DNA of 64,000 nucleotides from Gottfriedia acidiceleris (GTDB lineage: Bacteria > Bacillota > Bacilli > Bacillales > Bacillaceae_G), in contig NZ_CP096034.1 in assembly GCF_023115465.1 (NCBI RefSeq), forward strand, positions 2,418,001-2,482,000, written 5' to 3'. The position numbers and the translations under genes are program-made. The notes under the pieces were generated by a model, which did not search any database, was not told the DNA's origin, and saw only the letters and a list, made by a program, of their open reading frames with translations. Numbering within the stretch: the first letter of the stretch is position 1; each line of letters begins with the position of its first letter. Shown in pieces: positions 29,793-55,566 of this stretch.

Positions 29793-29832
29793 ATAATAAG
29801 AATTTTCTCGGAATTAGTAAATTGGGGAATTT
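29793..29832 (-). promoter_or_regulatory. Promoter with proximal AATTCCCCAA box, S8 gene 1
   Basis: On the minus strand AAATTCCCCAA is followed at once by TTTACT, a 17-bp spacer and TATTAT (29793-29798), about 40 bp before the TTG start. The box abuts the -35 position exactly as in the three other S8 promoters. Confidence 0.7.
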
Positions 29833-29968
29833 AATTCGATGTTCTTGTCGTTTTTTAGACAAATAACTACAAGAAAACAGATGATATTATTTTTTTAGAT
29901 AAAAAAAATCGATTTCAACAGAAATTTACAAATCAATTGTCGTATTTAGAAGAATATCCGATGATGAA

Positions 29969-29981
29969 ATTGGGGAGATTT
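29969..29981 (-). promoter_or_regulatory. Distal AATTCCCCAA-like box, S8 gene 1
   Basis: ATTGGGGAGATTT on the plus strand, a one-base variant of the proximal box, 148 bp further upstream (GGGG to GGGG). No good -10 follows it, so it looks like a second protein-binding site. Confidence 0.5.
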
Positions 29982-30068
29982 TTAAAATTAATTAGAGAAA
30001 AAGTGTTATTTTAAATAAAAAATGAAGTCATTTTAATTAAATTTTAATCATTTGTTCTATTAATCAAT

Positions 30069-30094
30069 AAAGCAGCCACTGTACTGGCTACTTT
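30069..30094. terminator. Hairpin terminator downstream of the EF-hand pseudogene
   Basis: AAAGCAGCCA and TGGCTACTTT pair with one mismatch around a 6-base loop with T-rich flanks. It probably ended the gene whose remains lie at 30357-30690. Confidence 0.5.
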
Positions 30095-30690: not shown

Positions 30691-30733
30691 ATACCTTAGT
30701 TATTAATTTATATTTTCATCAGAATAGATTAAT

Positions 30734-30763: not shown

Positions 30764-30786
30764 CAAAAATTTCTTCAAATACTTTT

Positions 30787-33700
30787 TTAGTTTAATCCCA
30801 AAGGTTTAAGAATATCTTCTAATGTCTTTCCTTTATAAATTTTAGTTGGTTGCTTATGGATTGTAAAGTCTGGATTTAATAACAGGTAATTACCTTTCAC
30901 AAACTGTATATCCTTCATATCTACTACACCATCAAAATTGATATCTGCATCGCGATCTTTTGTACCAAGCTTGCTAATAATGTAGACAGCATCCATGATA
31001 TCAATGACATTATCTTTATTAACGTCTCCGGCTCTTGTAGTTCCGTAGAAGATATACTTTAGTTTTCCTACTGCCTGGCCTTCATATAAATCTACTAAAT
31101 CATCTACTCTGGTGTGTCTCTCAAAATGACCAGGAACCTTTACAACTAGTTCATAGGATTGATTGATTAAGGGAAGATTCTTAATAGAAAATCTAGCAGA
31201 GCTGTTAACTGTTGCATCATATCGTTTTCCATCTTGACCAATCATATATACTTCTGCACCCACCATTGAATAGTCCTTTTGGTAATCAAGCCATAAGGTA
31301 CCCGGTGCGATAAAACCATCTGGTAAGAAACCGCCTTCAAGTACAGAGGTTGCTGGAAGGATATTAATCCCTCTACCAAATTTATTTATAAACAATGGTG
31401 ATTGATTTAATACATATGCTTTTGCTGAAGTGATGTTAAGTTGTTGAATCCATTTTGTGTAGACAGTTGGATTGTCCTTCACTTTGAAAGTAAGGTTCAT
31501 TACTCCCATACTTTCATTAATTCCAGAAGTTGTAGTTCCAGTTAATTGTGGAATTAATTTAATACTGTTCATCGTACCAGTAGTTGTTTCAACTTTAGTA
31601 AAGTTAGCCGTAAGTCCCTTCGCTTGGGCAGCGTTTACAAGTTGGTTGTTTAATTCCACACCCTGAAGTTCAAATACTTGATTATTATATGAGAGGGTAT
31701 ATTCCCCACCCATGAAATCTTTAATATTGTGCTCGCTTAAAGTTACTTTAAAAGTATCACCGTATTTGGCATTATTTTTATCAGTCATTAATTTCACATA
31801 TGAAGTTCCCTTTTTCACCAATGTGTAGACAAAATCTGGATGATCCTGAATGCTGTTCATAGCATTATCAAATGCTTGAAGTGAGATTGTTGTATTATTC
31901 CCTTGTGTAATCGTTTTTTGATATTCAAAATTACCATTCTTATCAATTGTTAGTGGAATGTTCCCCGTTGGAAAAGTAGTTAATACATTAATCATGTTAG
32001 AGGATTGGTCTATATTTATTCCGAAATTATTCATTGCATCCACATTATCATCATTAATATTTCCGCTTATTTTTAGACCAGTATCATCCACTTCATATAC
32101 TCCACCTGGCATATTCATTTTAATTGTTGGAAGAGTATTTTCAATCATTACTTTCTCAGATTTTTTAAATAGATCCCCATCTTCGTTTTGTGCCACTAAT
32201 TCAATTTCATATCTACCAGGTGACGCAAGTTTCTTTATTAAACTTACAGGTTGATCTTTATTACCAGTAAATGGGAAGTACAATCCAACAAATCCACCTT
32301 CTACTCCCCAAAACGTATCTTCATTAAAATACCCACCATGGTATGAATCGATAATCCCAAGTTCTTCCCCAGTATCTGCATTTTTTAATACAATATCAAC
32401 ATCGTTCATTCGACTTGAGAAACTGAATCCAATCGGAGTATATCCCATGTAGTTAGTATTCATATCTCTTCTAGTCGCAAATGATTTAAATGGTACTTCA
32501 AATTCACTTATTCCTTCGTGTATCTTCTTAAATCCAAATGGAATTTGATAAACTTCGTTGCTATCATTTTTATTTGTAAAGTAAATATAACCTTCATATA
32601 AACCAAGCTCAGCGTCTTTTGGTATTGTTAGAGTCGATTTAACGGAAGAATATGAATTTGGTGTTACTGTTACTTCCGAAGCGATATCCATATTTACACC
32701 ATTTTTTGCAGCATTCTGTGACATTTCTCCACCTTGATTAAATACAACCTTTATGTCAAATGACTTTTCAGTATTAGAGCTATTTGTAATATCAATTGAT
32801 TTTCTAATTTTATTATCTTTTTTAGAATCAGGAATAGGACCGTAAGCGATATCCCCTGCTGACTGTGGTTTATTAACTAGTTGATTATTTTGTATGGTTG
32901 ATATTTCATCATTCACACTAACTTTAACAGCAGAATGAACAGCTTCATATGTATTAATTCTTCCAGATCCTTGTTCAAATACACTATAGGAGCCATTTAA
33001 ATTTTCGGCCGTATTCATCAGAGCTTGTTTAACTTCTGCAGGTGTATATTCAGGATGTGTTTGTAAAATCAAGGCAGCAGAACCTGCAACATGCGGAGCT
33101 GCCATTGACGTACCTGAGAATCTAGCATAAGCATGCTGATAGTCAGCTCTATGACCTGCTCCGTTTGCATAAGCTGGGATTGAAGAGAACACTCCAACTC
33201 CAGGAGCCGTGACTTCAGGTTTAATATCATAATCCCTACTTCCTGGCCCCCTAGAGCTAAAGTCTGCTAACTTATCTCCAGGGATCGTCATTTTTCCAAA
33301 ATCTTTAATGTTTAGATTTACTTGTCCACTTTTTAGCATATTAATTATTTTAGTTCCCTCTTCATTTAAAAGGTTAAACGTTGGGCAGTAGTCAAAGGAG
33401 TAGCCAAAATAGTAAGGAATATAGTCTTCAGTGGAAACATTATTGTATAGCATAACTGCTTTTGCACCATTTGCCTTCGCTAAAGAAATTTTAGCATTTA
33501 ATGTTGTATTACCACGTTCAATAAGTACAATTTTATCTCTGACATCTAAACCTTTATAGTCAGGAATATCTCCTTTACCAACATATACAATTGGAATAGT
33601 AGACCCTTTCAGTGTATTAATACTAGTATAATAATCTAAAGCCATCATTCTCATATTATTTAGATTAAGAGTTTCAGTTGCTGAACTTACCACTCCATTA

Positions 33701-34932
33701 CTAGTTTCTGCTGTAACATCAGAGCTGTTTGCACCAACAGATATACCTAGTGGTGATGCAGCTGGATTTCCGATTGAATATGGTGCTCCGTAATTCCCGG
33801 CCGCAATAACGCAAACCGTTCCAGCAAGGGTTGCATTGTTGATGGCGAGTGACATTGGATTTAGCGGATCGGTAACATCAGTCCCCAATGACAAATTAAT
33901 AACGTCCATTTTATCTTGTACAGCTCTATCAATCCCTGCTAAAATTGCATCAGTAAAACCTGTTCCATATGGTCCCAATACTTTATATCCATATAGCTCT
34001 ACATCTGGAGCTACACCAGTTATAGCGAATTCAGAAGAATTTTTCCCAGTACCAGCAATAATCCCAGAAACGTGTGTTCCATGGTTTGTCCAGTATGATG
34101 CACCAGTAAGCAAATTAAATTGTGGACTTCCTGATTTTTGAAAATCTTGATAAGTTGTTTCCATTGGGTCTGAATCGTTACTGACGAAATCATATCCACC
34201 TTTGTAAACGTCTTTTAGATCTGGGTGTGTATAATCGATTCCTGTATCAATGACTCCAACCTTTATACCTTTTCCAGTAATTCCTTCCTTATGTAACTTG
34301 TTAGCACCAATTTGATTAATGTTATCCTGAGTTAAAGTTGAACTGCTGCTTGTTGATTCTACTTCTTGCTCCACGTTTGGCTCAATTGAAACCTCTTTAT
34401 TTTCATAAACAGCTTGAACAGTATCCATATTTATTAATTCTTGTACCTGGTTTGCAGGTAAGGTCATGGACACGCCATTAAAAGCATGCTTGTATTCCTT
34501 ATTGATTTCAAAGGAATTATTTAATTTTGAATTTCCATTTAGCTGATCCTTAAATTTTTTATGGGATTCATTAACCAAATTCATGGAGTCATCTAATGAA
34601 GCTTTGATGCCATTGGCTTTCTTTTTCTTAAAATCTACCTCTGTTGGATCCTGTTTAAACTGAACAATGACATTTAGAGGTGTATCCACCTTCAAATTCA
34701 CATCAGTTGAGAGTTTCAGTTTATCAAAATCCATCTCTTGCATACTATGAATTCTATCTCTGTCAGCATCGGATATATTTTTTATGTAACTGTCAATATC
34801 CTTTATGCTAGAATTGGAATCTGACACCGCAAATGTTTTTTCGTTAAGTATCAAACTAGTTGACAATAAAGATGTCGTTATCACCCCAGTGGTGATTACC
34901 TTGATGATTTTTTTGTTTTTTTTGTTCCTCAT
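30787..34932 (-). CDS. Secreted S8 subtilase with cohesin-like domain and dockerin
   Basis: A signal peptide (about 1-36) and an I9-like propeptide (85-185) precede the S8 domain with Asp229, His284 (NHGTHVSG), Asn380 and Ser609 (SGTSMAAPHVAG). A PA domain lies at about 440-550 and Fn3_5/Ig-like domains at 670-1040. Next come a cohesin-like domain at about 1045-1175 (YGDTFKVTLSEHNI, GGEYTLSYNNQVFELQGVEL), a carboxypeptidase-regulatory-like fold (about 1195-1275, ending PGHFERHTR) and a C-terminal dockerin (1300-1348) with two calcium loops, DVNKDNVIDIMD and DINFDGVVDMKD. Cohesin and dockerin in one chain could allow self-assembly. ATG at 34932 follows AAGGAG; the longer start at 34950 lacks a site. 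Confidence 0.93.
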   Translation of the reverse strand: MRNKKNKKIIKVITTGVITTSLLSTSLILNEKTFAVSDSNSSIKDIDSYIKNISDADRDRIHSMQEMDFDKLKLSTDVNLKVDTPLNVIVQFKQDPTEVDFKKKKANGIKASLDDSMNLVNESHKKFKDQLNGNSKLNNSFEINKEYKHAFNGVSMTLPANQVQELINMDTVQAVYENKEVSIEPNVEQEVESTSSSSTLTQDNINQIGANKLHKEGITGKGIKVGVIDTGIDYTHPDLKDVYKGGYDFVSNDSDPMETTYQDFQKSGSPQFNLLTGASYWTNHGTHVSGIIAGTGKNSSEFAITGVAPDVELYGYKVLGPYGTGFTDAILAGIDRAVQDKMDVINLSLGTDVTDPLNPMSLAINNATLAGTVCVIAAGNYGAPYSIGNPAASPLGISVGANSSDVTAETSNGVVSSATETLNLNNMRMMALDYYTSINTLKGSTIPIVYVGKGDIPDYKGLDVRDKIVLIERGNTTLNAKISLAKANGAKAVMLYNNVSTEDYIPYYFGYSFDYCPTFNLLNEEGTKIINMLKSGQVNLNIKDFGKMTIPGDKLADFSSRGPGSRDYDIKPEVTAPGVGVFSSIPAYANGAGHRADYQHAYARFSGTSMAAPHVAGSAALILQTHPEYTPAEVKQALMNTAENLNGSYSVFEQGSGRINTYEAVHSAVKVSVNDEISTIQNNQLVNKPQSAGDIAYGPIPDSKKDNKIRKSIDITNSSNTEKSFDIKVVFNQGGEMSQNAAKNGVNMDIASEVTVTPNSYSSVKSTLTIPKDAELGLYEGYIYFTNKNDSNEVYQIPFGFKKIHEGISEFEVPFKSFATRRDMNTNYMGYTPIGFSFSSRMNDVDIVLKNADTGEELGIIDSYHGGYFNEDTFWGVEGGFVGLYFPFTGNKDQPVSLIKKLASPGRYEIELVAQNEDGDLFKKSEKVMIENTLPTIKMNMPGGVYEVDDTGLKISGNINDDNVDAMNNFGINIDQSSNMINVLTTFPTGNIPLTIDKNGNFEYQKTITQGNNTTISLQAFDNAMNSIQDHPDFVYTLVKKGTSYVKLMTDKNNAKYGDTFKVTLSEHNIKDFMGGEYTLSYNNQVFELQGVELNNQLVNAAQAKGLTANFTKVETTTGTMNSIKLIPQLTGTTTSGINESMGVMNLTFKVKDNPTVYTKWIQQLNITSAKAYVLNQSPLFINKFGRGINILPATSVLEGGFLPDGFIAPGTLWLDYQKDYSMVGAEVYMIGQDGKRYDATVNSSARFSIKNLPLINQSYELVVKVPGHFERHTRVDDLVDLYEGQAVGKLKYIFYGTTRAGDVNKDNVIDIMDAVYIISKLGTKDRDADINFDGVVDMKDIQFVKGNYLLLNPDFTIHKQPTKIYKGKTLEDILKPLGLN

Positions 34933-35024
34933 CAAATCGCTCCTTCTCAAATAAATCTAGGATTTCTTCTAAATCAAAGCTAGCAATCGATTAAATTAAT
35001 ATTCAGAATAATCACTTAATTAAC

Positions 35025-35066
35025 ATTATATATAGGTTGTATTTCGAAGTGTATTGGGGAATTTGA
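35025..35066 (-). promoter_or_regulatory. Promoter with proximal AATTCCCCAA box, S8 gene 2
   Basis: Minus strand: AAATTCCCCAA, then TACACT, a 17-bp spacer and a perfect TATAAT (35025-35030). The weak -35 next to a perfect -10 suggests an activator at the box. Confidence 0.72.
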
Positions 35067-35200: not shown

Positions 35201-35213
35201 ATTTGGGGAAATG
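35201..35213 (-). promoter_or_regulatory. Distal AATTCCCCAA-like box, S8 gene 2
   Basis: ATTTGGGGAAATG on the plus strand, 149 bp upstream of the proximal copy (GGGG to GGGG). Confidence 0.5.
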
Positions 35214-35578: not shown

Positions 35579-35616
35579 AAAATCACCCTTTCTATTTGAT
35601 TTATTTAAAAAAACGA

Positions 35617-35652: not shown

Positions 35653-38600
35653 TTATTTCTTGATGGTTGTTGCAACGCTTGTATTGCCAGCTTTATCTTT
35701 TGCAGTGATTGTGAAGGTTGTGCCATCACGTTGTTTGGCAAATTTCACTGTGAATTGGCCTGATTGGTTTGTTGTTGCTGTTCCAACCACTTTTTTGCCA
35801 ACTTTCACTGTGATCACTGAACCTTTTTCTGCTTTACCAGTAATCGAAGTTGATGTCGCTTTGACGATGACTGGTTTTGCAGGTGCCGTTTTATCAATGA
35901 CCGTGACAGTTGTTGCTTTGCTGCTATTTCCAGCAGCGTCTTTTGCGATTACTTTTAGAATCGTTCCTGCTTTTTGAACTGGAATGGTAATCGAGAATGT
36001 ACCAGTACTTGTTGCTTTTACACTTCCGATGACTTTTGTGCCAACTAGGACTGTCACTGTTGCACCAGCTTCAGTTTTACCAGTTACCACTTTGTCAGAG
36101 TCTTTCACCACTTTCACCACTGGTGCATTAGGTGCGATCACATCTTTGACAATGACTGTCGTCTTCGCACTTTCATTGCTAGATGCATCCGTTGCGCTGA
36201 CAAGAATCTTCGTTCCTGCTGCTTGTTTAGCGATCTTAATAGTGAAATCGCCAGTTGAACTCGCTGTCGCTTCCCCAATGACCTTTGTGCCAATTTTCGC
36301 CACCACGTGAGAACCTTTTTCTGCTTTCCCAACAATCGTTGTCGAAGTATTCGTCACTGCATTCACAATTGGAGCGATTGGCGCTGTGATGTCTTTAAAG
36401 GTAACATGAATCGTATGCTGAGCAGTTACATGTTTTAACGTGAAGGTGTTTCCTTCGATTGCTACTTTATCGCCATCAACGGTTAAGGTGTCAATGACAT
36501 AGCCGTTTTCTGGTGTGATCACAAACGTTTGATCTGTGCCATAAAACATGTTGACGTTTCCGTTTGGTGTAATTGAACCATGAGCATCTGCTGAAACCGT
36601 CATCTTGTACACGATTTGCTTAAAGGTCACATCAATCGTATGATTAGCTGTTACATTTGTGAACATGTAACTGTTATCAACTGGTGTAATCTTCACACCG
36701 TCTACTTTTAGTGTTGCAATTTCATAGCCTTCGTTTGGTGTGATTGTAAATGGTTGGTTATCACCATGTTTCACTTCCACCCATCCGTTAGGGCTGATCG
36801 TTCCATTTGTGTCAGTTGTGACACTGATTAAATGAGCAAGCTCATCGCTGATGAAAATCGTGAATTTTGCATCAACATAGTTCGGTGCTGAAAGGGTAAA
36901 CCCATACACATCGACTGCTTGGAAAAGCGAGCGGTCGACAAATGTAATACCTGTCGCACTAAGTGTATATTTGCTTGAATCAACCACTTCACCGTTTAAC
37001 GTAAGAACTGGATTAGCATTCAGCCAATCTTGGCTTGATGCAAAGTTAATCGTAATTGGTGTGGTTTCTTGCACATACGCAATTTTTGAGTTCAAGGTTG
37101 GCGGATTTAACTTCACCACTTGTGTAACCGTTGTATCTGGGTAGCAATACGCTTTCAACACAACCGGTACATTTCCTTGCGCAGGGAATGCTGAACCTGG
37201 AAGTGTCATCGTGATCGCACTAGCGGTCGACGAAATCGTTGAGTCACCTTTCACCGATACGCCTCCGACTGTAATATCACCTGAAGCAGCTTTTGTTGCG
37301 TTTGCCCATCTTGTGTTTTCTGCTGTATTTGGCACTTTGATCACAACTTGTTTTCCGACTCCGCTTGTTGTAACAGTTGGAGTTGGCGCTGGTCGTTGAA
37401 CAAAAGCTTGTGTAATACTAACAGTTGCAAAGTAAGGTGAGACAAAATTAATCGTTTTGTTTCCTGCTGCTGTATTGGATTGAGTTGCATAGCCATCAAT
37501 CGTGACACTTCCAGCAACGCTTGTCACATACGGTTTCACAGATGTGTTGTTAAATTTGACATCTCCGTTGTCCGTTGTGGTTTCGGTTGTTGCACCAACG
37601 AATAAAGAACTTCTCCATAACGGATTGTCTGCACCAGACATTGTGTAGGTAACAGTGTCCCCATATTGTGGCGTTCCACTTGGTGCGCTTAGTGTTAAAA
37701 CAGGTGCTGGTTGTGGTGTGACCGTAATCGATACATTGTTATCAGCATAACCAGAAGCTGTAACCGTGAAAGTTTTTGCGACTGCACCGCCACCGTTTGT
37801 TCTCACTAAATCATAAGGAATTGTGATCGTTCCGGCTGTTTCATCGATTGCGATACGCGTTTTAACGGTTGATCCGAATTTAATCGTCCCGCTCGTTTTC
37901 ATCGCGTTAATCCAATCAGATGCCTTTGTGCCAGGAGTGAAGTTCAACACTAAATCTTGTCCAGCGTAAATGGTTCCTGCTGGTTTTGTTAAGGTAATGC
38001 CTTGTTTGTAAAGTGGTTGATCCACTTTCACCGTTTGATAATTTGTTGCCATCACGCTAACCGATACTAACCCTGGTGTTGTCATGAGTGACTTAGGAAT
38101 TATGATTGGCGTATTTGGTGCGCCTACTGTAATGTTATTCGCAGCAAAATCCGCTTTTTTAATAACGTTATTTCCAATTTGAATCGCTGTAATGGCATCT
38201 CGCCACTGCTGTGTATCGTTTGTTCCCCCAGCTGTGATGCTGATTGGATTTGTATTGCTGTCGTCAAAATAACGATTCGTCTCTGATGTCAGCGTTGGTG
38301 CTGGATTCGCATTAATCCGTTGAGAGAACGTATAGGAATCATAATCCTTCGCTTCGACAACGATTTTCCAATCAAAGAATGTTCCATTGTTATTAATCGA
38401 AGGTGTCGTAAATACACCTGCTGGAATCGTAAAATTAAACGTCGTTTGGTTTGCTGGCGTAATCACGTTAAAGAGTGACTGAAGTTCAGTTCCTGTATAC
38501 GTTTTTGCCACCGCGCCGCTTGGGTCTGTTACCGTAATTTTGTTGATGTTTGGCATCCAAACATCACGGTAGTGAGCCGCTGTTGAGCCTGTACCGTCTG

Positions 38601-41600
38601 CACGCGTAAAGGTTAGTGGTTTTCCGATTGTTGTCACGTTATTCGGTGCAAGAAGACTGAAAGAATTCCCTGCGCCATTCGTCATTTTAAATTTCATGAA
38701 GCGGTCCATATAACCTGGTGCTTTAAAGCGAATCGTGTGAACGCCACTTGTTTGGAACAACGATGGGTCCATTTCGAATTGTCCTTTGCTTGACACGACT
38801 TTATCTTGAATGGAATTCACAACCACTCCATTATACGTGTTTGTAGCAGACTTACGATCCACCCCATCAATCTGAATTTGCCCGCCAGTTCCGTCAATCG
38901 CTGCGCGATAAGCCGCATCATCGATTTGGGTTAAGGTCGTCACCCCTGTACTAACGTCTGGTGCTTTGTAAGCAACCGAGAACAATTGGAACGGATTCAC
39001 TTTACCAAAATAGACACTCGCTACGCTGTCGCTTGTTTTCATGTAAGGAACAGGCTTGATGACGCTATTAAAGGCTGTTAAATCAGAACCACTTGGAATC
39101 GTCGCAAAGCCAGTCAGTGTTAAATCAGCACTTGTTTTTGTTGTTGCCGTTAAGTTCGCTGCATTAGGTGCTGTATCGTTGATTTTGCCAAAGTTTTTAA
39201 TGATGTACTCAAAATCCGAGTAATCGATACTACCATCGAAGTTTAAATCGGCATTTCGTGTTACCGTTGATGGTGTTGCGACATAATCGTTATACGCACG
39301 AGATTCCGCTTCGATGTCTTTCATATCGATGACATTATCATTGTTAACATCCCCGGCAAGCATGATTGCGCGTGGAACGCTATATCTTCCGCCCGCCGCG
39401 TAGCCATATTGACCTGCTGCATTAACAGCCAGTGTGCCGTAGTATGTGAAATGTCCCGGTGTTTTCATCGTGAAATTGTACGGTTTTGTTCCTGCTTGCA
39501 ATGGCATTTTGGTTGTAAATAAGCCATTTTGTATTAATCCTTGATTGTCTGACGAAGAGGATGCTGTTGGGTCTTGCGCCACTGGTAAAGTGAAGCTTTC
39601 GCCACCTGCGTTTGGATCTTCGAATCGAATCTCGGCACCACTGTTTTCTGCCGTAAGTGGTGTTGAACGACCGTAGGTAGGAGACGTTGGATTGTTTTGG
39701 AATCCTTCTGGTCGAATGTCTCCAGTGACCATCGCGCCACCTTTGACAAATACATGTTTGTCTTGGAAAATCGGAATGCGGTCTATGCCAGTTGTGCCAT
39801 TTTGATACGTTGTAATGAATGGGATATTCCCACTTCCTTGAAGCCAAATCGTATCAAGACCAGTATCATTTACCACTTTGTACGTGATGTCTAAAATCGG
39901 CATTTCTTGTGCAACACCGTTTTGTAACGTATCACTTGTATTTAACACACCTTGTGCTTTCACATTATCTGGTAAGTTGAAATGAACAATCATGTCGCTG
40001 TTTACATCTTTATCGAGCACAATCCAGTTTTTATCCGCTAGAATGCCTTTTGATTGCAAGAAAGCTTTATAAGCTGGGCTGAAATCGATATTTGTTCTGT
40101 CTGCAAAATCAAATTCGTCTAAGAAGAAATTCGCCCCGACTAGGTTTTTCGGATATTTAATCGACAAGGTCGATTGGAAATTGTCTCCTTGACCGACTAA
40201 TGTTTTGTTTGCAAGGAACGAAGGGTCAATGCCGTTTAACGTGGTTGAACCCGGAGAGTCAAGACGTTTAAAACGGTTGATCGAGTATTCATTCCCTTTT
40301 TTCACGAAGTAATAATAGCGACCTTGCGTTTCTAAGTTCCCCGCAAATGAATAATCTTCTGGGTAAATACGGAACTGTGTTCCAAACATTTCTTTTTGTG
40401 GGTCTTTCGTTGTATTGACAAGATCCTCTTTTGAAATCCCGAATTTAAAGTTACCGTCTGCCTCCATGTCGATAAAGTAGTTAACATACGGTGCAGAGTT
40501 CGAATCGCCAAGCATCCCGTCAATTCGACCTAATGATTGACTCACGTTTGTATCCGTGTCGTAATTTGGTGGCTTTGGAACCGCTGTATCTTTCCCAACG
40601 TTTTTCATATAGTCAACGTTCGAATCATATGCTTTTCCAGAAAACCATTTTAATGCACCATTGGTGGATGGACCATCTGGGTCAATTTCGTAAATACCAG
40701 GTTGACTATTTGCATCCATTTCCATCGTCGGCGGGGTGTTATCAACATACACACTGCTGTTTAATTCATACAGATGACCAGTCGTCGCATCTAACGCACG
40801 CGCTTGAACGATGTAACCGCCTTCATCTGTGATTTTTGGTGTCGACGATTGTTGGGACAATTTCAACGTAAGGTTTGGATCATCCTTTGAAATCGGTGTG
40901 GTATACGGATAATACGAACCATTGGTTAAGAATGGAATATAGCTAAGATTTCCAAGGCTGAGTGAGTTCGTGTTGACCGTTGTGAGATAACCGATATAAT
41001 TTTTTCCTGTGACGTCCATGAGATAAAGTCTTAGGCCGTAGACTGGATCAAGCGGACTCTTTACACGTAATTCTGCATAAGACTGTGGAAGCACAGCGAA
41101 TGTGTTCGGATTAAAGTTTTTGTTTCCGGTTAACGTAATCGCTTTCCGTTGGACACGGAAATCAACCCCTCTGCTTTGAACATTGATGGCAAGAGGTAAG
41201 CGGTACGTTTCTGACGGGCTTGCTTGGTTCACGAAGTTCACATATGCCTCGTAGTAACCACTTGCGGCTGAATCTGGTGCAGTGAAGGTTGCCACAACGT
41301 GAACGGTTTGTCCTGCTGGCACTGTGATGGATGTTACGGGAGTACCTGGTGCAGAAGCATTCGCTAAGGACACTTTTGCTCCTTCAGAAGCTCCGTCTCT
41401 TCCATCTTTTACATAAGAATCTTTAAAGAAAACACTTGATGAATCAAAGGTTTTCGCTGATGTTCCGTTGTTTGTAATATACAAATCACCCGATTTTGAG
41501 ACGGAACCGTCTACTTGGCGAGGTGTATAACCGAATGAAAAACTACCAGTCGTATTCGGAATGGATACATAGTTGTTTGTGACGGTATCATCCATAGATG

Positions 41601-43887: not shown

Positions 43888-44110
43888 CGTTGTGATGTCT
43901 CCTTCTTAATGAATATTAATTAGCATGAACTTTTGTCAAACCTAGAGGTAATACAACGTTTGATAGCATTGCACTACAATGCAAAGAACGAAAAAATCTT
44001 TTTTGTTTGTCTTTTACTAAACTTTTTTCTATACTTCATAAATTCCCCCCAAAAAATTAAAGTAACGTTGTAATTTCTAAAATATTCTTAAGATTTAAAA
44101 CGTTAAAATA

Positions 44111-44150
44111 ATTTTACAGTAATCTACAATTTTCGCATATTGGGGAATTC
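44111..44150 (-). promoter_or_regulatory. Promoter with proximal AATTCCCCAA box, S8 gene 3
   Basis: Minus strand: GAATTCCCCAA, then TATGCG, a 17-bp spacer and TAAAAT (44111-44116). It implies a 5' leader of about 215 bases, longer than for the other S8 genes. Confidence 0.65.
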
Positions 44151-44309: not shown

Positions 44310-44323
44310 TTTTGGGGAATTTA
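44310..44323 (-). promoter_or_regulatory. Distal AATTCCCCAA box, S8 gene 3
   Basis: TTTTGGGGAATTTA on the plus strand, 172 bp upstream of the proximal copy. The region 44324-44806 holds no gene I can support. Confidence 0.55.
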
Positions 44324-46683: not shown

Positions 46684-49600
46684 TTAACGGACGAATGCGA
46701 TGACACTTGTCCAGTTGCTGTAGATTTTTTTCGAACCAACGATTTTGAAAGAACGTACTTTGTAGTAGGTCGTTTTTCCTTTCGTTAAGCCGCTGTTTGT
46801 GTAAACTGGTTTTGTAGCATCTGCTAAGTGAGTGTAAGTGCCAGTTTTTGAAGTTGATTTTGCAATTTCATATCCCGTTGCACCTGTTACACTGTTCCAC
46901 GTTAATTTGACACCCGTTTTTCCGTCTTTTGTTGCTTTTACGTTCGATGGTATCGCTGGAATTGCAACCCATTTTGCGTAAATGGTTGTGTTACTCGTTA
47001 CTTGGTCTTTCGCAAAATTCCATGCTACTTTACCTGTTGCATCTTTGTACCATCCAAGGAATACATAACCTTTTCTTGTTGGTGACGCTGGTTGGCTAAT
47101 TGTTAAATTGTAATTTGCTGTTTTTGAAGCAACTGAACTTCCTCCGTTACTGTCAAATTTAACAGTATACGTGTTAATGTTCCATTTTGCATAAAGTGTG
47201 ATGTTACTTGTTAATGTTACGTTTGTTCCTACTGACGTTTTTAACGTTGCATCATTGTACCATCCAACGAATGTATAGCCTGTTCTTGTTGGTTTTGGTA
47301 AACTCATTACACTATTATAATTAGCTGTTTTATCAGTCACTTGACTGCCACCATTGCTATTAAAGTGAATCGTATAAGCGTTAATGCTCCATTTCGCATA
47401 TAGGTTTATATCGTCCGATATTTTGTCAGTATCAAAGTTCCAAGCTACTTTGCCTTCCTCATCTTTGGTCCATCCAACGAACGTGTAGCCTGTTCTGTTT
47501 GTTGTCGGTGCAGTGATCCCTGAGTTATATGTTGCAGTTTTGTCAGCAACTTGACTACCGCCATTACTATTAAAGTGAACAGCGTACGAATTAATACTCC
47601 ATTTCGCATAAAGGATCATGTTATCTGTTACTTTGTCAGTATCAAAGTTCCATGGTGTTTTACCTTCAGAATCTTTCGTCCATCCAAGGAACGTATAGCC
47701 TGTTCTTGTTGGTTTTGTTTCATCAAGGTATGAGTTGTACTCAGCTTTTACTGATACGACTAGTCCAGCATCTTGTGTGTTATAAATGACAGTGTATTTA
47801 GCTGGTTTCCATGTTCCGTAAATTGTTTTTGCAGAGTAAATCGAATTTGTGAAATCCCAAGGGATTGTGCAATCTTCATCTGCGAACCATTTTAAATCGT
47901 ATCCGTGTAAGGTTGGTTCTGTGATACGACGTACGACGATTTGGTCTTTTACCTCAAATGGTGCTTTTTCACCTTTTAGAACATAACGAATGATGTTTCC
48001 GTTTACGATTTTTTGCGTCACGGTCACATCTGCATAGTCTTTTGCACTAATACTGATGATAAAGTCACCTGTTTTTTTGAATACACTCTGATCAATTGTT
48101 AGCGTGCCATGTGCTGCATCGATTTTGTAGTTTGCTGCATCAATTGCTGAGCCAGCCACTTTGATATTCGTAATCGCATTTGCCCAATCTTTGTCGCTAA
48201 ATTCGAGTGTGATCTCATTGCCTAACGCATTATCAGTTGTATCGGCTGTTACGATTGATGTTGCTAAGGCATATTTTGCATACAGTTTCATTGGTTTTGT
48301 GACAACACTTGTGAAATCAAACGGTGTCGTTAACGTTGCGTCACTGTACCATGCAATAAATTTGTATCCAACTTTTGTTGGCTCAGTTGGCTTTGTGACA
48401 CGTGAGTCGACGATTTGCGAATCGATTGCATCGCCTCCGTTTGTTTCAAATGATACAGTGTAGCCGATGATTTGGTCTATCACCTGCGCATCCATGTAGC
48501 CTTCTGATGAAATGTTTACATTGACTTTTTGTCCTGCTGTAAACAATGATTTATCAAGTGTAATTGAACCTTTGTGTGTGACTGTATCATACGTTATTTT
48601 ATAATCAGTACCTGCATTTAGTACTTTTGAACCAATGCTAACTTGCTTAATATTATTTCGCCACGTTCCGTCATCTGTAAATGGTAACGTGAGATCGCTT
48701 CCGACAATATTTCCTACGACATCTTTTGTTACTTGAGGCGCTGTTTTCATCCAAGCGATGTAGTATGTTTCATTGTTTTTCAATACTTTACCAGTTGAGA
48801 TTGAAATTGGTACAGTTTGTCCGCTTGTTCCAGCTGCATCATAATAAAGGTTTGGCATCATGGAAAGGGTGCCATTTGTTACTTTTTTTGCTGCTGTCGG
48901 CATATCAATCCCAGTTGTTTTCCCGTTGACTAGTTTGTCACTGAAGAATGCATCATTTGCTATATTTAATGTGCCTCCATTTAAATCAATGTGTCGGCGA
49001 TAACCTAGTTTCACATTTGGAATTTGAACGGATTCCCCACCTGTTGACGTTAGTGTCAATTGATAACCGTTTGAATATGGTGCTTGACTAAATGCAAACT
49101 TTTCACTCGGGTGAGCTGTTGCATAAGTTTCTGTCGCCGTTGTGAACGTTAACGAACCACTACCATCATGATTATCAACTAAATCATACGTAGTTGGGTC
49201 TAACGTATACGTACTCGTTGTTGATTCAAACGTGCCATCTGCTTTCATTTTGTAGTACGTCGCGTCGATTTTTGCGATATCGTTCTTTGTCTTTAACCAT
49301 GGCGTTGTCGTTGTATAGTCTGGGATTTTAATCGTAACGGGACCTTCACCCAGTACGGTACCACCTAATTTATCACCATCTGGTTTCGACAAATCAACAG
49401 GTGAATAGTTTTGCGTGTAATTCACTTGCCATTTCGCCGCAACTTTTATATCTGACGCATAGTTTAGATTTACATCCCATAAGACGTTTGTCATATCATT
49501 CGTGATCGGATCAACAAGATACCATCCAACAAAATTATAGCCAGATTTAACAGATAGTGGATTACTTCCATTTGGTAGCGAGTTATTTGAAATTAACCTA

Positions 49601-52600
49601 TCTGCGCTACCATTTCGAGAATTACCCGGTTTATAACCGAATGAGATTGGATCAATCGCACTTCCGCCTTTTGTATCAAATGTAATGCCATACCCAATTG
49701 CTTGCATCGCACTATAGACGCTATCTCCACCGATTGTGACCAACGGGTAAATCGTCCCGTCTAAACCAGTTGAATTGATTTCGAATTTATACTGTTGTGG
49801 TAAATAGTTCGTTCCACCTGGATTAATCGGTGCATTATACGACGTTCCGACATTCGGATCAATGGTTGTATTTGTTTTAAATAAATCAGCTTTAAATGTA
49901 ATTTTTCCTGATTGCGAAATGTCGTAATACAGATTACCATTTCCATCTTTTAAATTCGTAATATCGATTCCTGCTGTAAAATTTCTTGTTTTGACAACGA
50001 TTTTATTGATCCCATTACGCCAATTTGCGTCGTCAGCAAAATTATAGTTAAACGTGATATCCTTTCCGATATGCGCTTTTGCTGGATCTGTGACCATTGG
50101 AATCGTAGGAGTTGGAATTGGCACAGATGCAATGGTAAAGCTTGTTGTGACTGGTTGGTAGCCATTCGCTGTGATACGAACGGTGTACGTACCAGTTGTA
50201 TTAAATAACGAACCGTGTAATTTTAGTGTAGCCGGTACATAGATAGCCCCTTGAATCGGGTCATATTTGACGTAGCCGGGTGTCATCGATACAGATTTAT
50301 CAGTTGTATTTGGCACAACTGCATTCGTTACATCTGTGAAATTACCGCCTACTCCTAATTCAACCTTTGTAATCGCATTTCGCCATACCGTATCATCTAA
50401 TAGCACAGTGCTCGTCGGGATCAGCGAAACAGTTGAACCATTTTTCAAATCTTGGAAAGTTGGTAATTGCGTTCCTGAAGTCTTTTGCGTTGGACCTGCA
50501 AAATTCAGTTTTGCCAAGACATCGTTTAGACCATTACCAGCAGATAACGTATAGGTTTTCACTTTCGAATCATAAGAAGAAGCGGTATACGTTCCTCTAT
50601 TTGAACTAATCGATAGATTGTCTGTCAAAGTAAGTTGTGGTTCTGGGACGACCTTACCTGCATCAATCGCACTTTGATTTTTCTGACCAAAGTTTTTCAA
50701 GATATAGTAAAAATCATTGTAATCAATATTACTGAAAGAGTAACTGCCTAATCCATTTAGTCCTGAGAAAGCATAGCTAATGTCATTATTTCGATGAGCA
50801 GTAGAATTTGTAAAGAATTCCGCTTTTTCCTTAGAAGGCGCTGATACACCTTTTAGAAAATCAAAATCAGCATATGCTTGAATTTCTGAAACTAAATCCT
50901 TCATATCAATGACATTATCGCCATTCACATCTCCACCAAGTAAAAGTGGTGTGTTCATTGATGCGAAATCAAAGTATGAACCTGATTGATAACCAAATTT
51001 GTTGTAACCAATCACTGGCGTTGTTTGATAGCCTTTGAAGTGACCTGGCATATATGTTTCAATTGAATATGGTTTGTCACTTGCTTTCATTGTAATGGAA
51101 TACGTGCCTGACGTATTATTTTGGTATTGAACAGTGTTTGTGTCGCTTGCGTTATCTGTTACAAACGTATTGCCATCGGCATCTTTTGCTGTTATGAACG
51201 CGCCTGTATCCTTCGTAATATTCGTAAAACTTCCGCTTAGACTGTTTGCTCTGAAGCTTTCCGCAAACAGACCGCCTGTTACTTGTGAGATCGGTTGTTT
51301 GAGAAGTGGCATATTCGTTAAGAAAGCCGGAACGCTTGTATCTTTTCCGTCGATCGTGAAGCTCGATTGAATGACATTGAATTCTTCATCGATTGGGCCA
51401 ACATATGCATTCTCATCTTTGTAAGTCAAATCTGCTTCAAAAATCTTCATGTTTTGCGTGTCTTTCGTCAACGCACCTGCTTCAGAAACGCCAGATATCG
51501 TCACGTCGATTGAATTTCTGCCTGTGTGTTGATCTAAATAAGGTTGACCAACTGTTAGTGTCGGTGTGATCCCTTTACTTCTTAAATAGTTTACATAGTC
51601 GTCAGAAAGCTTAATATTCGAATACTCAAGGATTCTACCAGCATTAATTGTAAACGTCCCGCCGGTCATTCCGATTCCATTTTTCGTCGCAAGCGACACT
51701 TTAAATGGTTTTTTCGGTTCAACGACCACGTTTCCTTTGCTTTCTAATGCTGGGTCTACGCCTCCAGAAGTTGTGAAGGTTACATATGGTGAACCTTTTT
51801 TGATGAAGTAAAACTTTTTCTTCGTTGAATACCAGTCACCTGCTCCTGCATAGTCTTGAGGATAGATGACAAATTTCATTCCACTTGCCTTAATGTCATC
51901 AGGCTCTAAGCCGAAATTGAAACGGCCATTTCCATCCGTTCGGAAAGTTGTCGTGACAAATGGACCATCTTGATAACCAAACACTGTGTTCTGCCCTTGA
52001 TTAACAGGTACAGGTTGACGCGTACCAATATCACTTAACGTCGTTTCGCCATTGTTTTTCATGACATCCATATTTGAGTCGTATACTGTTCCATAAAATC
52101 TCTTGATTTCTTGTCCTTGGTTGTATCCTGTTGGGTCGATTTCATAAATACCCGGCTGCGAATCAGTATCCATCGTTAAGGTAGGGGCTTTATAGTCGAC
52201 ATAAAGCGTGTCTTCTTTTGTGAATTTTTTCCCATCTTTGTCCGTTGCGACCATCTCAACGGAATAGGCGCCTTCTTTCAGAACCGCAGGTTTAGTCCCG
52301 ATGCTAGTTTGATCAAGTGAGCCATTATATGGTTTTGTAAATGGTAGATAGAGTCCACCAACAAGCATTTGTACAGGACCATAAACAACCCCAGGACCAG
52401 CGCCACTGATATTGCTAATATTTTGTACGACTCCGATATAGTTTCCATCTTGATCTTTCAATAGAACATAGGCGCTTTCCATTGAACTGTTGACCGAAAA
52501 TCGATAGCCTGAACCAGGTGCGCCAATATTTGGGTTATAGTTTCCAGTATAACGCTCGGTTAGTGTCATAGCTTTGATATCTACACTAAAATCAATTCCT

Positions 52601-55263
52601 TTTTCAGCAACAGTAATTGTAAACGGCATGCGGTATGATTCTTTCGCATCATTTACATTCACAACATTTACATATCCTTCGTACGTACCGTCTACTGCGT
52701 TTGCTGGCACGGTAATTGTCGCTTTCGCTTTCACCGAGCTATTTCCGTCCACACTTAAAGACGTTACATTTGACTCACCGGACGAAAAATCGATTTTGAC
52801 ATTATTTCCGGTACCTTGTCCAACTGGATTTGAAACCGCAAATTTTGTCGTGATGAATTTTGAACTCAGCTTAAATGTTTTACTTGTTGAACCTTGGTTT
52901 GTAATCGCAAACTCTTTTGACTGTACAACATCATCCGAACCAGGTTTTGCCCCTTCTCCACGTCCATTAAATCCAAACGAGAAGCTACCTGTTGTGTTAT
53001 CGATTTGTGTATACTGATCTTTCCCATCGATCGTTGCAACACTTGTCGCTTTGTCTAACACTTGAATTTTGATGTTTGAGTGAATTGCTCGTTCTGGATC
53101 CACACGTCCTGCACCAACTTGGTACACACTGTATGTTTTTGAATCCGTGTCCACATCTTTTGCTGTATTCATTAAGGCCGTTTTGACATCGGCTGGTGTG
53201 TAATCCGGATGTGCAGCTAATACAAGCGCTGAAATCCCAGCTACGTGAGGCGCAGCCATTGATGTACCTGACATCGATTGATACGCATATTTATAATCTT
53301 TACTAGGATTTGGTTCCCATATGTCGTATGGTTGAGTTGAGAAAATGTCAACACCTGGTGCGATGACGTCTGGTTTGATACTCCAATCTTTTACTGGCCC
53401 TGTTGAACTGAACGATGCCAATTCATCAGCCGGTTTGTTGATTGGTGCATCCAGCGTCATTGGGAACGTAATCTTTGCGTTTTGAGGATCGTCTTTGATT
53501 GCTTTCGCAAGTGCTTCGCCTTGTGCTTGTGTAATGGAAACAGCATACACATTATCACCGTTAATCCCTAAGAAGTTTGGAATATAACCTTGCGTTGCTT
53601 CATCCGCAGTGTTATCCCAAATAATCATCCCTTTTGCCCCAGAATCTTTCGCATGAGCCATTTTTTGAGATAAGTACTCGCCTCCGCGTTGCACAAGAGC
53701 TATTTTTCCGCTCATGTCTCTTCCAGCATAATCATCTTCGGTTCCTTGACCAACATCGACGACTGGAATCGACAATCCTTTGAACGCATCATCAGCGTCC
53801 GCGAAATGTTTCCCGAATAACCGCGCTTGATAAGACGTGTTTCCGAATTTTAGGGTTTGTACGGGAATTTGTTCTGGAACGGTACTTGCACCAACTGTAA
53901 TGGCAAGCGGTGCAGCTCCTGGTGCCCCAACTGTCGCGGCCCCTGGTCCTGAATTTCCTGCAGAGACTGAACAAACGACACCTTGTAAGGTTGCGTTGTT
54001 AATTGCAATACTCGTTGGATAAAACGGGTCATTAACAGATGCACCTAGTGATAGGTTCACGACATCCATTTTATCTTTTACTGCTTGGTCAATTCCGCTT
54101 AGGACAGAGTAAGAATTACCATGCCCACCCGGACCAAGTACGCGGTACCCGTGAAGTTCAACATCTGGTGCAACACCATCCGCTGAATAAACGTTATTAT
54201 TCGCTGTCGTACTTGCTGCAATTGTACCCGATACGTGTGTACCGTGTTCCGTAATATAATCTTTGTAATTAGCCGATACACTTCCAGGTGCATTTTCTCT
54301 TGCCTCTTGCCAATCCGGATAGATCGTTTCCATCGGGTCATGATCATCTATTGGAATCTCGTTTCCATCTGCATCCACTTTTGAGTTAATAAAGTCGTGC
54401 CCTTCATAGATATGACCGTTCGCATCGTGTGTTACGTCATATAAATCAGGGTGGTTGTAATCAATCCCTGTATCTAGTACCCCGACTTTTACTCGTTGAC
54501 CTTTTCTTGGACCTGACAGGAATTTCCCTGTGTTCCCTTCTGCATGTAGTTTGTCAACTTCCATTAATGAAAGTCCTGCAGTTGGTTTTCCAGTCGAAGG
54601 AGCTTCAGTCGCTGTCGCTGTTTCGCCTGCTGAAGGCGTTCCTTCTTCTACTTCGTACTGGACAACTGACCAAATCGACGCAACATCCGCCTGACTAGCA
54701 ATTGTTTGAACCATACTAGGAGGAACCGATAACGCAACCCCGTTGAATGCATCCGTGTATTCTCTTGTTATTTCTATATTAGAAGAAACTTCTTTTCCAC
54801 CAGCGATTTGCTTACTCGGTTGTGTCTTCACAAACGCTTTAAATTTTGCATGTGCATCCGCAACTTTTTGTTTCGCTTCTGTGTAATCAGCAGCAAATGT
54901 TTGCGCACTTGCGCTTCCTTTTTCGAGTGATTGCTTTATGATTTGGATCTTTGCTGGATCCACTTTAAATTGAACGATGACGTCAATGTTTTTTCCGTTT
55001 TTTAAATCCTTCTGATCAACGTGGATTTTTTGTGTGTTATCCGCGCCAGTTAGTTTGTTGATGTTCGCTTTTTGTTCCGGTGTTAATCCAGCCAAAATGC
55101 GGTTCACTTCGTCTGCTGTAAATTTCCCATCAGATGGATTTTTCTGATCAACATTCGACTCCGCATGTGCAAGAATGGCACTTTGTGGTAGGACCATATT
55201 TATCAACATCGCGCTACTTAACGCAACAGCCGATATTGTTCGTTTCTTTTGTCTCTTTTTCAT
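46684..55263 (-). CDS. Giant secreted S8 subtilase with cohesin-like, dockerin, InlB-type repeats and Fn3
   Basis: The 2859-residue chain has a signal peptide (about 1-35) and an I9-like propeptide (90-205). The S8 domain carries Asp264, His340 (EHGTHVSG), Asn437 and Ser668 (SGTSMAAPHVAG), with a PA domain. Fn3_5/Ig-like parts and a cohesin-like domain (about 1180-1310) follow, then a dockerin at about 1440-1530. Its first calcium loop is intact (DVNGDNVIDMKD) but the second is interrupted by about 15 residues. The C-terminal third has six or more InlB B-type repeats (TGYTFVGWTKDEEGK, LYAKW) and ends in an Fn3-like domain (VKLTWNSVTGATGYEI). No LPXTG is visible. InlB repeats suggest surface or matrix contact. 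The ATG lies close to a run of basic codons (KKRQKKR). Confidence 0.93.
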   Translation of the reverse strand: MKKRQKKRTISAVALSSAMLINMVLPQSAILAHAESNVDQKNPSDGKFTADEVNRILAGLTPEQKANINKLTGADNTQKIHVDQKDLKNGKNIDVIVQFKVDPAKIQIIKQSLEKGSASAQTFAADYTEAKQKVADAHAKFKAFVKTQPSKQIAGGKEVSSNIEITREYTDAFNGVALSVPPSMVQTIASQADVASIWSVVQYEVEEGTPSAGETATATEAPSTGKPTAGLSLMEVDKLHAEGNTGKFLSGPRKGQRVKVGVLDTGIDYNHPDLYDVTHDANGHIYEGHDFINSKVDADGNEIPIDDHDPMETIYPDWQEARENAPGSVSANYKDYITEHGTHVSGTIAASTTANNNVYSADGVAPDVELHGYRVLGPGGHGNSYSVLSGIDQAVKDKMDVVNLSLGASVNDPFYPTSIAINNATLQGVVCSVSAGNSGPGAATVGAPGAAPLAITVGASTVPEQIPVQTLKFGNTSYQARLFGKHFADADDAFKGLSIPVVDVGQGTEDDYAGRDMSGKIALVQRGGEYLSQKMAHAKDSGAKGMIIWDNTADEATQGYIPNFLGINGDNVYAVSITQAQGEALAKAIKDDPQNAKITFPMTLDAPINKPADELASFSSTGPVKDWSIKPDVIAPGVDIFSTQPYDIWEPNPSKDYKYAYQSMSGTSMAAPHVAGISALVLAAHPDYTPADVKTALMNTAKDVDTDSKTYSVYQVGAGRVDPERAIHSNIKIQVLDKATSVATIDGKDQYTQIDNTTGSFSFGFNGRGEGAKPGSDDVVQSKEFAITNQGSTSKTFKLSSKFITTKFAVSNPVGQGTGNNVKIDFSSGESNVTSLSVDGNSSVKAKATITVPANAVDGTYEGYVNVVNVNDAKESYRMPFTITVAEKGIDFSVDIKAMTLTERYTGNYNPNIGAPGSGYRFSVNSSMESAYVLLKDQDGNYIGVVQNISNISGAGPGVVYGPVQMLVGGLYLPFTKPYNGSLDQTSIGTKPAVLKEGAYSVEMVATDKDGKKFTKEDTLYVDYKAPTLTMDTDSQPGIYEIDPTGYNQGQEIKRFYGTVYDSNMDVMKNNGETTLSDIGTRQPVPVNQGQNTVFGYQDGPFVTTTFRTDGNGRFNFGLEPDDIKASGMKFVIYPQDYAGAGDWYSTKKKFYFIKKGSPYVTFTTSGGVDPALESKGNVVVEPKKPFKVSLATKNGIGMTGGTFTINAGRILEYSNIKLSDDYVNYLRSKGITPTLTVGQPYLDQHTGRNSIDVTISGVSEAGALTKDTQNMKIFEADLTYKDENAYVGPIDEEFNVIQSSFTIDGKDTSVPAFLTNMPLLKQPISQVTGGLFAESFRANSLSGSFTNITKDTGAFITAKDADGNTFVTDNASDTNTVQYQNNTSGTYSITMKASDKPYSIETYMPGHFKGYQTTPVIGYNKFGYQSGSYFDFASMNTPLLLGGDVNGDNVIDMKDLVSEIQAYADFDFLKGVSAPSKEKAEFFTNSTAHRNNDISYAFSGLNGLGSYSFSNIDYNDFYYILKNFGQKNQSAIDAGKVVPEPQLTLTDNLSISSNRGTYTASSYDSKVKTYTLSAGNGLNDVLAKLNFAGPTQKTSGTQLPTFQDLKNGSTVSLIPTSTVLLDDTVWRNAITKVELGVGGNFTDVTNAVVPNTTDKSVSMTPGYVKYDPIQGAIYVPATLKLHGSLFNTTGTYTVRITANGYQPVTTSFTIASVPIPTPTIPMVTDPAKAHIGKDITFNYNFADDANWRNGINKIVVKTRNFTAGIDITNLKDGNGNLYYDISQSGKITFKADLFKTNTTIDPNVGTSYNAPINPGGTNYLPQQYKFEINSTGLDGTIYPLVTIGGDSVYSAMQAIGYGITFDTKGGSAIDPISFGYKPGNSRNGSADRLISNNSLPNGSNPLSVKSGYNFVGWYLVDPITNDMTNVLWDVNLNYASDIKVAAKWQVNYTQNYSPVDLSKPDGDKLGGTVLGEGPVTIKIPDYTTTTPWLKTKNDIAKIDATYYKMKADGTFESTTSTYTLDPTTYDLVDNHDGSGSLTFTTATETYATAHPSEKFAFSQAPYSNGYQLTLTSTGGESVQIPNVKLGYRRHIDLNGGTLNIANDAFFSDKLVNGKTTGIDMPTAAKKVTNGTLSMMPNLYYDAAGTSGQTVPISISTGKVLKNNETYYIAWMKTAPQVTKDVVGNIVGSDLTLPFTDDGTWRNNIKQVSIGSKVLNAGTDYKITYDTVTHKGSITLDKSLFTAGQKVNVNISSEGYMDAQVIDQIIGYTVSFETNGGDAIDSQIVDSRVTKPTEPTKVGYKFIAWYSDATLTTPFDFTSVVTKPMKLYAKYALATSIVTADTTDNALGNEITLEFSDKDWANAITNIKVAGSAIDAANYKIDAAHGTLTIDQSVFKKTGDFIISISAKDYADVTVTQKIVNGNIIRYVLKGEKAPFEVKDQIVVRRITEPTLHGYDLKWFADEDCTIPWDFTNSIYSAKTIYGTWKPAKYTVIYNTQDAGLVVSVKAEYNSYLDETKPTRTGYTFLGWTKDSEGKTPWNFDTDKVTDNMILYAKWSINSYAVHFNSNGGSQVADKTATYNSGITAPTTNRTGYTFVGWTKDEEGKVAWNFDTDKISDDINLYAKWSINAYTIHFNSNGGSQVTDKTANYNSVMSLPKPTRTGYTFVGWYNDATLKTSVGTNVTLTSNITLYAKWNINTYTVKFDSNGGSSVASKTANYNLTISQPASPTRKGYVFLGWYKDATGKVAWNFAKDQVTSNTTIYAKWVAIPAIPSNVKATKDGKTGVKLTWNSVTGATGYEIAKSTSKTGTYTHLADATKPVYTNSGLTKGKTTYYKVRSFKIVGSKKIYSNWTSVIAFVR

Positions 55264-55351
55264 GTTACTCCCCCACTTTTAGTCGTCTCTTATTAAATTA
55301 ATGAGATAAACGAAAAATTAAATCAGTATTAAAATACTAATCTATAATTCA

Positions 55352-55391
55352 ATAATACTTCACTAAAAATGTCTGAGTATTGGGGAATTTG
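55352..55391 (-). promoter_or_regulatory. Promoter with proximal AATTCCCCAA box, S8 gene 4
   Basis: Minus strand: AAATTCCCCAA, then TACTCA, a 16-bp spacer and TATTAT (55352-55357), about 90 bp before the ATG. Confidence 0.68.
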
Positions 55392-55551
55392 TTACTTTGT
55401 GTCGGAGTTTGATGAAAAAAATCTAATGGTTCTGATGTAAAATACAGACTATTTAATCATCTTTTGTCATAAAATGTTATTTTTTAATTATTTTCCGTTC
55501 TATTTACCTACATTAAATAAAGATTTCTATACCCAATGACTAAACTTGTTA

Positions 55552-55566
55552 AAATTGGGGAATTTC
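55552..55566 (-). promoter_or_regulatory. Distal AATTCCCCAA box, S8 gene 4
   Basis: AAATTGGGGAATTTC on the plus strand, 175 bp upstream of the proximal copy. On the minus strand a TATAGA follows at promoter distance, so a second start is conceivable. Confidence 0.55.

Follow-up and report, generated by a model that had tools for sequence, protein, structure and literature searches.

A paired promoter box of secreted S8 protease genes in Gottfriedia and an NprR-like candidate regulator

Four giant S8 protease genes and their promoters

The window analyzed here is a stretch of 64,000 nucleotides, bases 2,418,001-2,482,000 of a one-contig Gottfriedia genome of 4.69 Mb, from a soil relative of Bacillus. 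It harbors four giant S8 protease genes on the minus strand, each preceded by a -10 element, a proximal box, and a second, distal box. The genes and promoter parts are listed below in window coordinates.

26261-29752, minus strand: S8 protease gene 1, 1163 aa, TTG start; Peptidase_S8 (E 1.4e-47), PA, fn3_5
29793-29798, minus strand: gene 1 -10 element TATTAT, 23 bp after the proximal box
29822-29831, minus strand: gene 1 proximal box AATTCCCCAA, a training sequence of profile R1
29970-29979, minus strand: gene 1 distal box ATCTCCCCAA, imperfect, 148 bp upstream of the proximal box
30787-34950, minus strand: S8 protease gene 2, 1387 aa as listed; Peptidase_S8 (E 2.6e-62), Inhibitor_I9, PA, Dockerin_1
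35025-35030, minus strand: gene 2 -10 element TATAAT, 23 bp after the proximal box
35054-35063, minus strand: gene 2 proximal box, exact AATTCCCCAA, a training sequence of profile R1
35203-35212, minus strand: gene 2 distal box ATTTCCCCAA, imperfect, 149 bp upstream of the proximal box
35653-43887, minus strand: S8 protease gene 3, 2744 aa; Peptidase_S8 (E 8.8e-66), Big_6, Shr-like_HID, Dockerin_1
44111-44116, minus strand: gene 3 -10 element TAAAAT, 23 bp after the proximal box
44140-44149, minus strand: gene 3 proximal box, exact AATTCCCCAA, a training sequence of profile R1
44312-44321, minus strand: gene 3 distal box, 172 bp upstream of the proximal box
46684-55263, minus strand: S8 protease gene 4, 2859 aa; PF00082 match at genome positions 2471134-2472501
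55352-55357, minus strand: gene 4 -10 element TATTAT, 22 bp after the proximal box
55380-55389, minus strand: gene 4 proximal box, exact AATTCCCCAA, a training sequence of profile R1
55555-55564, minus strand: gene 4 distal box, 175 bp upstream of the proximal box

For gene 2, an ATG near 34932, preceded by AAGGAG, appears by eye to be a likelier start than the listed one. We re-derived the promoter anatomy described in the original prediction, namely a box directly against the -35 position followed by a TATWAT-type -10 at the spacings given above, and the poor -35 hexamers reported for genes 1 to 4 (TTTACT, TACACT, TATGCG, and TACTCA) agreed to the base. The second copy was recovered at the four distances claimed, in imperfect form in genes 1 and 2, and, as had been stated, the pair is absent from all other genes of the window. 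The combination of a TATAAT-like -10, a poor -35, and a box abutting the -35 is the layout of an activator-dependent (class II) sigma-A promoter.

The exact 10-mer occurs six times in the window against 0.31 expected, a count reached by none of 100 shuffles, and all six are minus-strand copies in front of the four S8 genes. With one mismatch, 11 copies were found against 7.2 expected, and 11 of 100 shuffles reached 11; not being enriched in the window, the one-mismatch 10-mer was rejected as a specific signal by itself.

A conserved RNA element as a reading of the box region was also rejected, as the window yielded no Rfam match at gathering score, positions 55700-56200 included. That stretch, upstream of gene 4, has what we take to be the look of a group II intron (GTGCGAC start), and IS3-like transposase frames lie beyond it at 57301-58481. 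Between the promoter and the start of gene 3, there is a short frame at positions 43974-44039 (MKYRKKFSKRQTKKIFSFFAL, then a stop) whose ribosome site is strong; signal-peptide-like remains follow it, as if an S8 gene had formerly stood there.

A promoter class across the genome and the genus

Genome-wide, the exact 10-mer was only moderately specific, with 34 copies against five of the reversed pattern, and it was rejected as a specific signal alone, since 21 of the 34 copies lie outside S8 promoters. When the box was combined with the -10 (TTCCCCAA N20-24 TATWAT), 10 matches at nine sites were obtained against one control match; eight of these sites precede S8 genes and one precedes a membrane-protein-like frame. 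A sequence-only profile, R1, was trained on 21 promoters, of which 11 are from this genome, and two of the 23 pattern matches were excluded from the model because they were not proximal promoters. Scoring was limited to the best 150 first-look candidates in this genome and to the best 101 in the cross-genome search. Among the former, R1 gave 25 hits at E<0.05, of which 19 lie upstream of S8 loci, and 11 of the 25 are not independent because R1 was built from those promoters. The 14 hits outside the training set comprise eight upstream of S8 loci (P about 5e-14 by area, the expectation per hit being 0.8%, the share of searched sequence that lies upstream of S8 loci) and six class B promoters, described below. 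Background frequency, which the original prediction had singled out as the outcome that would speak against it, thus applies to one signal and not to the other: the bare 10-mer lies near background outside promoters, whereas the R1 profile rises above it.

The S8 loci were counted from 49 PF00082 rows, of which two, the second halves of split genes, were omitted. On all evidence, 25 of the 47 loci are boxed: 22 by R1 at E<=10, together with L385, L220 (missed by R1 and found by eye), and the S8 gene linked to a class Ia RNPP gene, which has an intact distal box and CCCCCATTTACC as its proximal copy. No boxed promoter was found at the other 22 loci, of which 20 were read and two were covered by the profile search only; in one of the 20, an isolated CCCCCAA lies 406 bp upstream.

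In class B promoters, the same box and -10 stand behind a further conserved stretch (ATGGCAGTTTAGTTGAATAAGGAT..TTGAAATTCTA). Their genome positions are as follows.

869183, 1366230, 2000599, 2149212, 2151519, 2692553, and 2842375: class B promoters, six found by R1 at E<0.05 and one at 0.11

By eye, five of the seven sites precede small membrane-protein-like frames, one precedes an XRE regulator gene at a distance of 341 bp, and one has no clear frame; class B-like promoters also occur in other genomes of the genus. The idea of a private regulon for secreted proteases was therefore only partly borne out: the promoters are of an activator type, but they are neither restricted to four genes (25 of 47 loci) nor strictly to proteases (class B). 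Judged from sequence, the box forms the upstream end of a promoter class that is found throughout the genome.

The distal copy was analyzed in the 22 of 23 boxed S8 promoters that were readable upstream, one having been lost at a stretch edge. A second same-strand CCCCAA lies 109-217 bp away in 16 of the 22, against a mean of 0.2 and a maximum of 3 in 2000 shuffles that preserve base counts only; on the opposite strand, CCCCAA was found upstream of one promoter. One promoter has three upstream copies, at 31, 110, and 217 bp. With 16 of 22 promoters paired, the pair is therefore a rule of the promoter class and not a peculiarity of the four genes. Helical phasing of the spacings is weak in the 16 pairs of this genome (p about 0.13 at 10.5 bp and 0.04 at 11 bp) and gave p about 0.03 at 10.5 bp in 28 pairs, where related pairs do not count as independent. 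Copies at 31 and 217 bp (4661421), 33 bp (L343), 297 bp (L350), and 86 bp (L345) were omitted from these tests, and clear phasing was found in neither set. DNA looping between the paired boxes, as raised in the original prediction, is possible. Chance as the origin of the boxes was rejected on the basis of the shuffles, the control patterns, the non-training R1 hits, and the pair counts.

Across genomes, R1 at E<=0.05 gave 4-30 hits in each of 13 out of 13 genomes of the genus and 0-4 hits per genome in 47 genomes of other genera, both among the best 101 candidates. Nine hits outside the genus were opened; five lie inside open frames, three lie before non-S8 frames or none, and one was left unread. 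The box-plus-10 pattern gave 37 rows in 40 stretches of the genus, and in 29 of these a long S8-type frame comes next; outside this genome, S8 frames were recognized mostly by eye from their starts. One S8 protease start of this genome is 95% identical to its G. acidiceleris match and 73-80% identical to ten records named Gottfriedia, Bacillus sp., or Paenisporosarcina. The boxed promoter of this orthologue is kept, often with five C, in all 11 loci at >=73% identity (L080-L090), and among 27 more distant S8 loci a comparable one was seen only at L093, a G. acidiceleris paralogue. Conservation of the box promoter thus extends over the genus and to two records that bear other names. In Bacillus sp. 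7884-1, R1 gave 16 hits, of which 12 precede S8-type frames, three are other, and one (L356) is a boxed promoter before a frame that resembles, by eye, a secreted hexosaminidase (a sugar hydrolase), possibly a non-protease member of the regulon. Sporosarcina globispora has a clear boxed S8 promoter at L344, with a second copy 163 bp upstream.

RNPP genes beside boxed S8 genes

At 4.19 Mb of the same genome, three LysR genes and one HTH-TPR gene lie between two boxed S8 genes. The HTH-TPR protein (P0001) matches NprR, and in a search of the genus that covered the genomes other than G003, such genes were repeatedly found beside S8 genes among the matches listed. None of the neighbours of the four S8 genes of the window is an RNPP gene. 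The class Ia protein P0004 has 406 aa, and its residues 66-386 match the NprR structure 4gpk (E 5.5e-20); it also matches 5dbk (E 1.2e-19), and NprR structures are its best PDB matches. The N-terminal HTH of NprR-type RNPP proteins is present as HTH_3 above the curated cut-off in P0001, P0004, and P0005. The C-terminal part of P0004 is homologous to the TPR superhelix of NprR; Pfam itself names no TPR in P0004, and NCBIfam gives P0004 no name.

The class Ia gene is present in 12 of 13 genomes of the genus; in the genome of the window it lies at 418217-419434, and a class Ib gene at 4226339-4227553. In all 12 class Ia loci the start codon is preceded at 52-65 bp by the box, once as CCCCCCAG, and 0 of 12 other class I RNPP genes have the box; a thirteenth of the latter, one of 25 class I loci in all, has no readable start. 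An intact S8 frame is divergent from the class Ia gene in 10 of the 12 loci. In the remaining two, the divergent S8 start runs into a stop (G008), and both boxes are kept with no S8 frame in the stretch fetched (G004). The same class Ia-box-S8 layout was found in OV554 (L314) and Bacillus sp. 7884-1 (L313). In the class Ia-S8 gaps of eight species, both box positions form islands of conservation; seven have an intact distal box and one a variant, and the proximal box is unchanged in four and reads CCCCCATTT or CCCCTATTT in the other four. Relatives of class Ia at >=61% identity occur in four box-positive genomes, two of them of the species of G004 and G009, whereas 11 other genomes have relatives at <=55%. 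The genome G003 has 14 R1 hits and no class Ia gene in a draft of 800 contigs; its only such gene is of class Ib (54%), which could stand in place of class Ia there. Sporosarcina globispora has only class Ia-like fragments (54%).

We scanned 500 bp behind 22 RNPP genes for a gene resembling nprX or papR. The scan gave 11 short frames, none of them recurrent or signal-peptide-like by eye, and three of them overlap the end of the regulator itself. The next gene follows within about 110 bp of the class Ia gene in five of eight loci (L178, L197, L209, L298, and L300). Because no convincing pheromone gene adjoins, class Ia is called NprR-like here and not an NprR-NprX system; a propeptide gene of unusual form or at a greater distance may still exist.

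A second class of RNPP genes, class II, is divergent from S8 genes in all six loci opened (L293, L299, L302, L303, L305, and L310). None of the six has the CCCC box, and all six have a TAACACAA pair 115-118 bp apart; the divergent pairs share the conserved direct-repeat pair AAAATAACACAA. In a maximum-likelihood tree of 63 RNPP proteins, the TAACACAA genes form one clade (100/100), and 10 of 11 CCCC-labelled genes fall into one clade together with one Sutcliffiella gene (98/93). The eleventh is from Sporosarcina globispora, whose RNPP-S8 gap has CCCCAA copies with different flanks. For the tree, L329 and L338, with one stray CCCCAA each, were labelled as other, and LysR neighbours were labelled by motif. 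The box thus changes along with the regulator class, as expected of an operator.

Candidate operator, rival readings, and known systems

The box consensus AAATTYCCCCAANTTAC is an imperfect inverted repeat, AAATT-N5-AATTT, that abuts a weak -35 and lies 22-24 bp before a TATAAT-like -10, an arrangement conserved across species. The box itself is very probably an operator. The reading without any regulator, in which the box either remains from recent duplication of S8 genes or extends the -35 element of a sigma factor upstream, draws on the class A genes being paralogues and on the fixed position of the box relative to the -10. We consider it hardly credible, because the same box at the same spacing precedes the unrelated class B genes, orthologues with 73-80% protein identity retain the box upstream, and a distant second copy on the same strand would be left unexplained by either variant. 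Invariance of the box in nine aligned promoters proves nothing here, because those promoters were chosen by the exact box; the gaps chosen by gene neighbourhood, however, still show the box positions as conserved islands.

As to what reads the box, the original prediction named no regulator, and we regard NprR-like RNPP proteins as a good candidate. The linkage is partly circular, and since the box lies between regulator and protease, it may belong to the protease alone. An unlinked regulator, such as a response regulator or a global stationary-phase factor, with the RNPP linkage reflecting only an ancestral S8 neighbourhood, would fit the observation that most boxed S8 genes opened, including the four of the window, have no adjoining RNPP gene, that boxes occur in G003 and S. 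globispora, where no intact class Ia gene was found, and that class B genes carry the box with no RNPP gene noticed beside them in an unsystematic look. We consider this doubtful, given that the box stands at the RNPP start in every class Ia locus and in none of the other class I loci read, that G004 keeps both boxes without a following S8 frame in its stretch, and that a repeat pair of a different kind marks class II. Still less probable as the reader is a LysR-type protein from the family whose genes adjoin RNPP and S8 genes. LysR genes do recur (L011, L222, L177, L306, L324, L325, and L334), P0002 and P0003 consist of HTH_1 plus LysR_substrate, three LysR genes stand in tandem between two boxed S8 genes, and in G009 (L177) a LysR gene at 4805-5713 lies 102 bp behind a boxed promoter. 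That gene, however, occupies the place of S8 gene 1 of the window, judged by eye from a shared neighbour gene, and so may have inherited the promoter through gene replacement; it lies downstream of the box and is not divergent from it, unlike the usual LysR layout with the site between divergent genes. Moreover, no LysR gene lies in or beside the gap in eight class Ia loci, and the gap of six LysR-linked RNPP loci (L233 and L235-L239) has no box. A box near a LysR gene in L045 was set aside as a likely chance occurrence, since it overlaps both the ribosome site and the start of the RNPP gene next to it.

A class I RNPP protein is the probable reader of the box, and we lean, on balance, towards the full reading in which the box is the operator of an NprR-like class I RNPP activator, most likely class Ia, that controls a secreted-protease regulon. 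Under this reading, a trans-acting activator at the box would control a large set of secreted proteases in Gottfriedia and its near relatives. A class I RNPP dimer would read AAATT-N5-AATTT and recruit RNA polymerase; at the class Ia locus, one box would serve the promoter of the regulator itself, as self-control, and the other the protease, and S8 promoters elsewhere would have inherited the box pair by duplication. More speculatively, a peptide ligand may convert the regulator into a tetramer, which would grip the two boxes at once and bring in sigma-A RNA polymerase. A bolder version, which we consider quite unlikely, is that duplicated pheromone-less NprR-like receptors each acquired their own paired box (CCCC or TAACACAA) and S8 set, and that peptides released by the proteases from outside protein drive the two-operator tetramer, as feed-forward food sensing and not as a quorum sensor.

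Several known systems resemble parts of this arrangement. PlcR-PapR is an RNPP activator of secreted enzymes that acts through one dispersed operator, and in this it is like the Gottfriedia case; the PlcR box, TATGNAAN4TTNCATA, is however unlike AAATTYCCCCAATTT, and no papR-like gene was found behind the RNPP genes scanned. In the RopB-SpeB and Rgg-SHP systems of streptococci, a peptide-sensing regulator stands beside a secreted protease or peptide gene with its operator near the -35, as in class Ia-S8 loci, but the regulators belong to another subfamily and the protease to another family, and we know of no paired distant operator there. DegU, ScoC, and AbrB control subtilisin in B. subtilis, likewise a secreted S8 protease, through other regulators and sites, none of which, to our knowledge, has a box with a C4 core. 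NprR-NprX of the Bacillus cereus group shares the family of HTH plus TPR fold and the tie to extracellular proteases; it differs in that no nprX-like gene was found in the 500 bp scanned behind the class Ia gene, and in that nprA is called a metalloprotease in the source text covered, whereas the Gottfriedia targets are many S8 giants. According to PMC4970707, NprR forms a tetramer when its peptide is bound, and binding of this tetramer to two DNA sites has been suggested. An NprR operator consensus was not found in the parts covered of PMC3325205, PMC4970707, PMC5641580, and PMC7756075, and no paper among the matches listed prints the box in a regulatory context.

RNPP proteins that regulate proteases are already known; the operator, the regulon size, the pairing, and the match of class to box do not appear in the literature searched, as far as the parts covered extend (including PMC9765709 and PMC10075063). 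The analysis yields a defined candidate operator, at least 25 target proteases in one genome with 47 S8 loci, and a candidate regulator. The presence of these tags, usually in two copies, before about half of the giant secreted proteases and also at a regulator gene of peptide-sensor-like type suggests that a whole digestive arsenal is under a single sensing switch, and raises the question of which peptide an RNPP protein without a visible pheromone gene senses. If the regulator is true, the paired boxes would provide natural DNA for testing two-site binding by an NprR-type tetramer, and the two parallel regulator-box families would allow a test of how the RNPP DNA code changes after duplication.

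Two further arrangements were seen around the RNPP genes. In L011, three tandem LysR genes and, divergent from them, an RNPP gene of reduced length (317 aa) occupy positions 5202-9362, with a giant S8 gene on either side, and divergent RNPP-LysR pairs recur in G009, OV554, and Sutcliffiella. In several genera, RNPP genes lie near genes which we take, partly by eye, to be camelysin/TasA-like and signal-peptidase-like (L305, L329, L331, L336, and L339).
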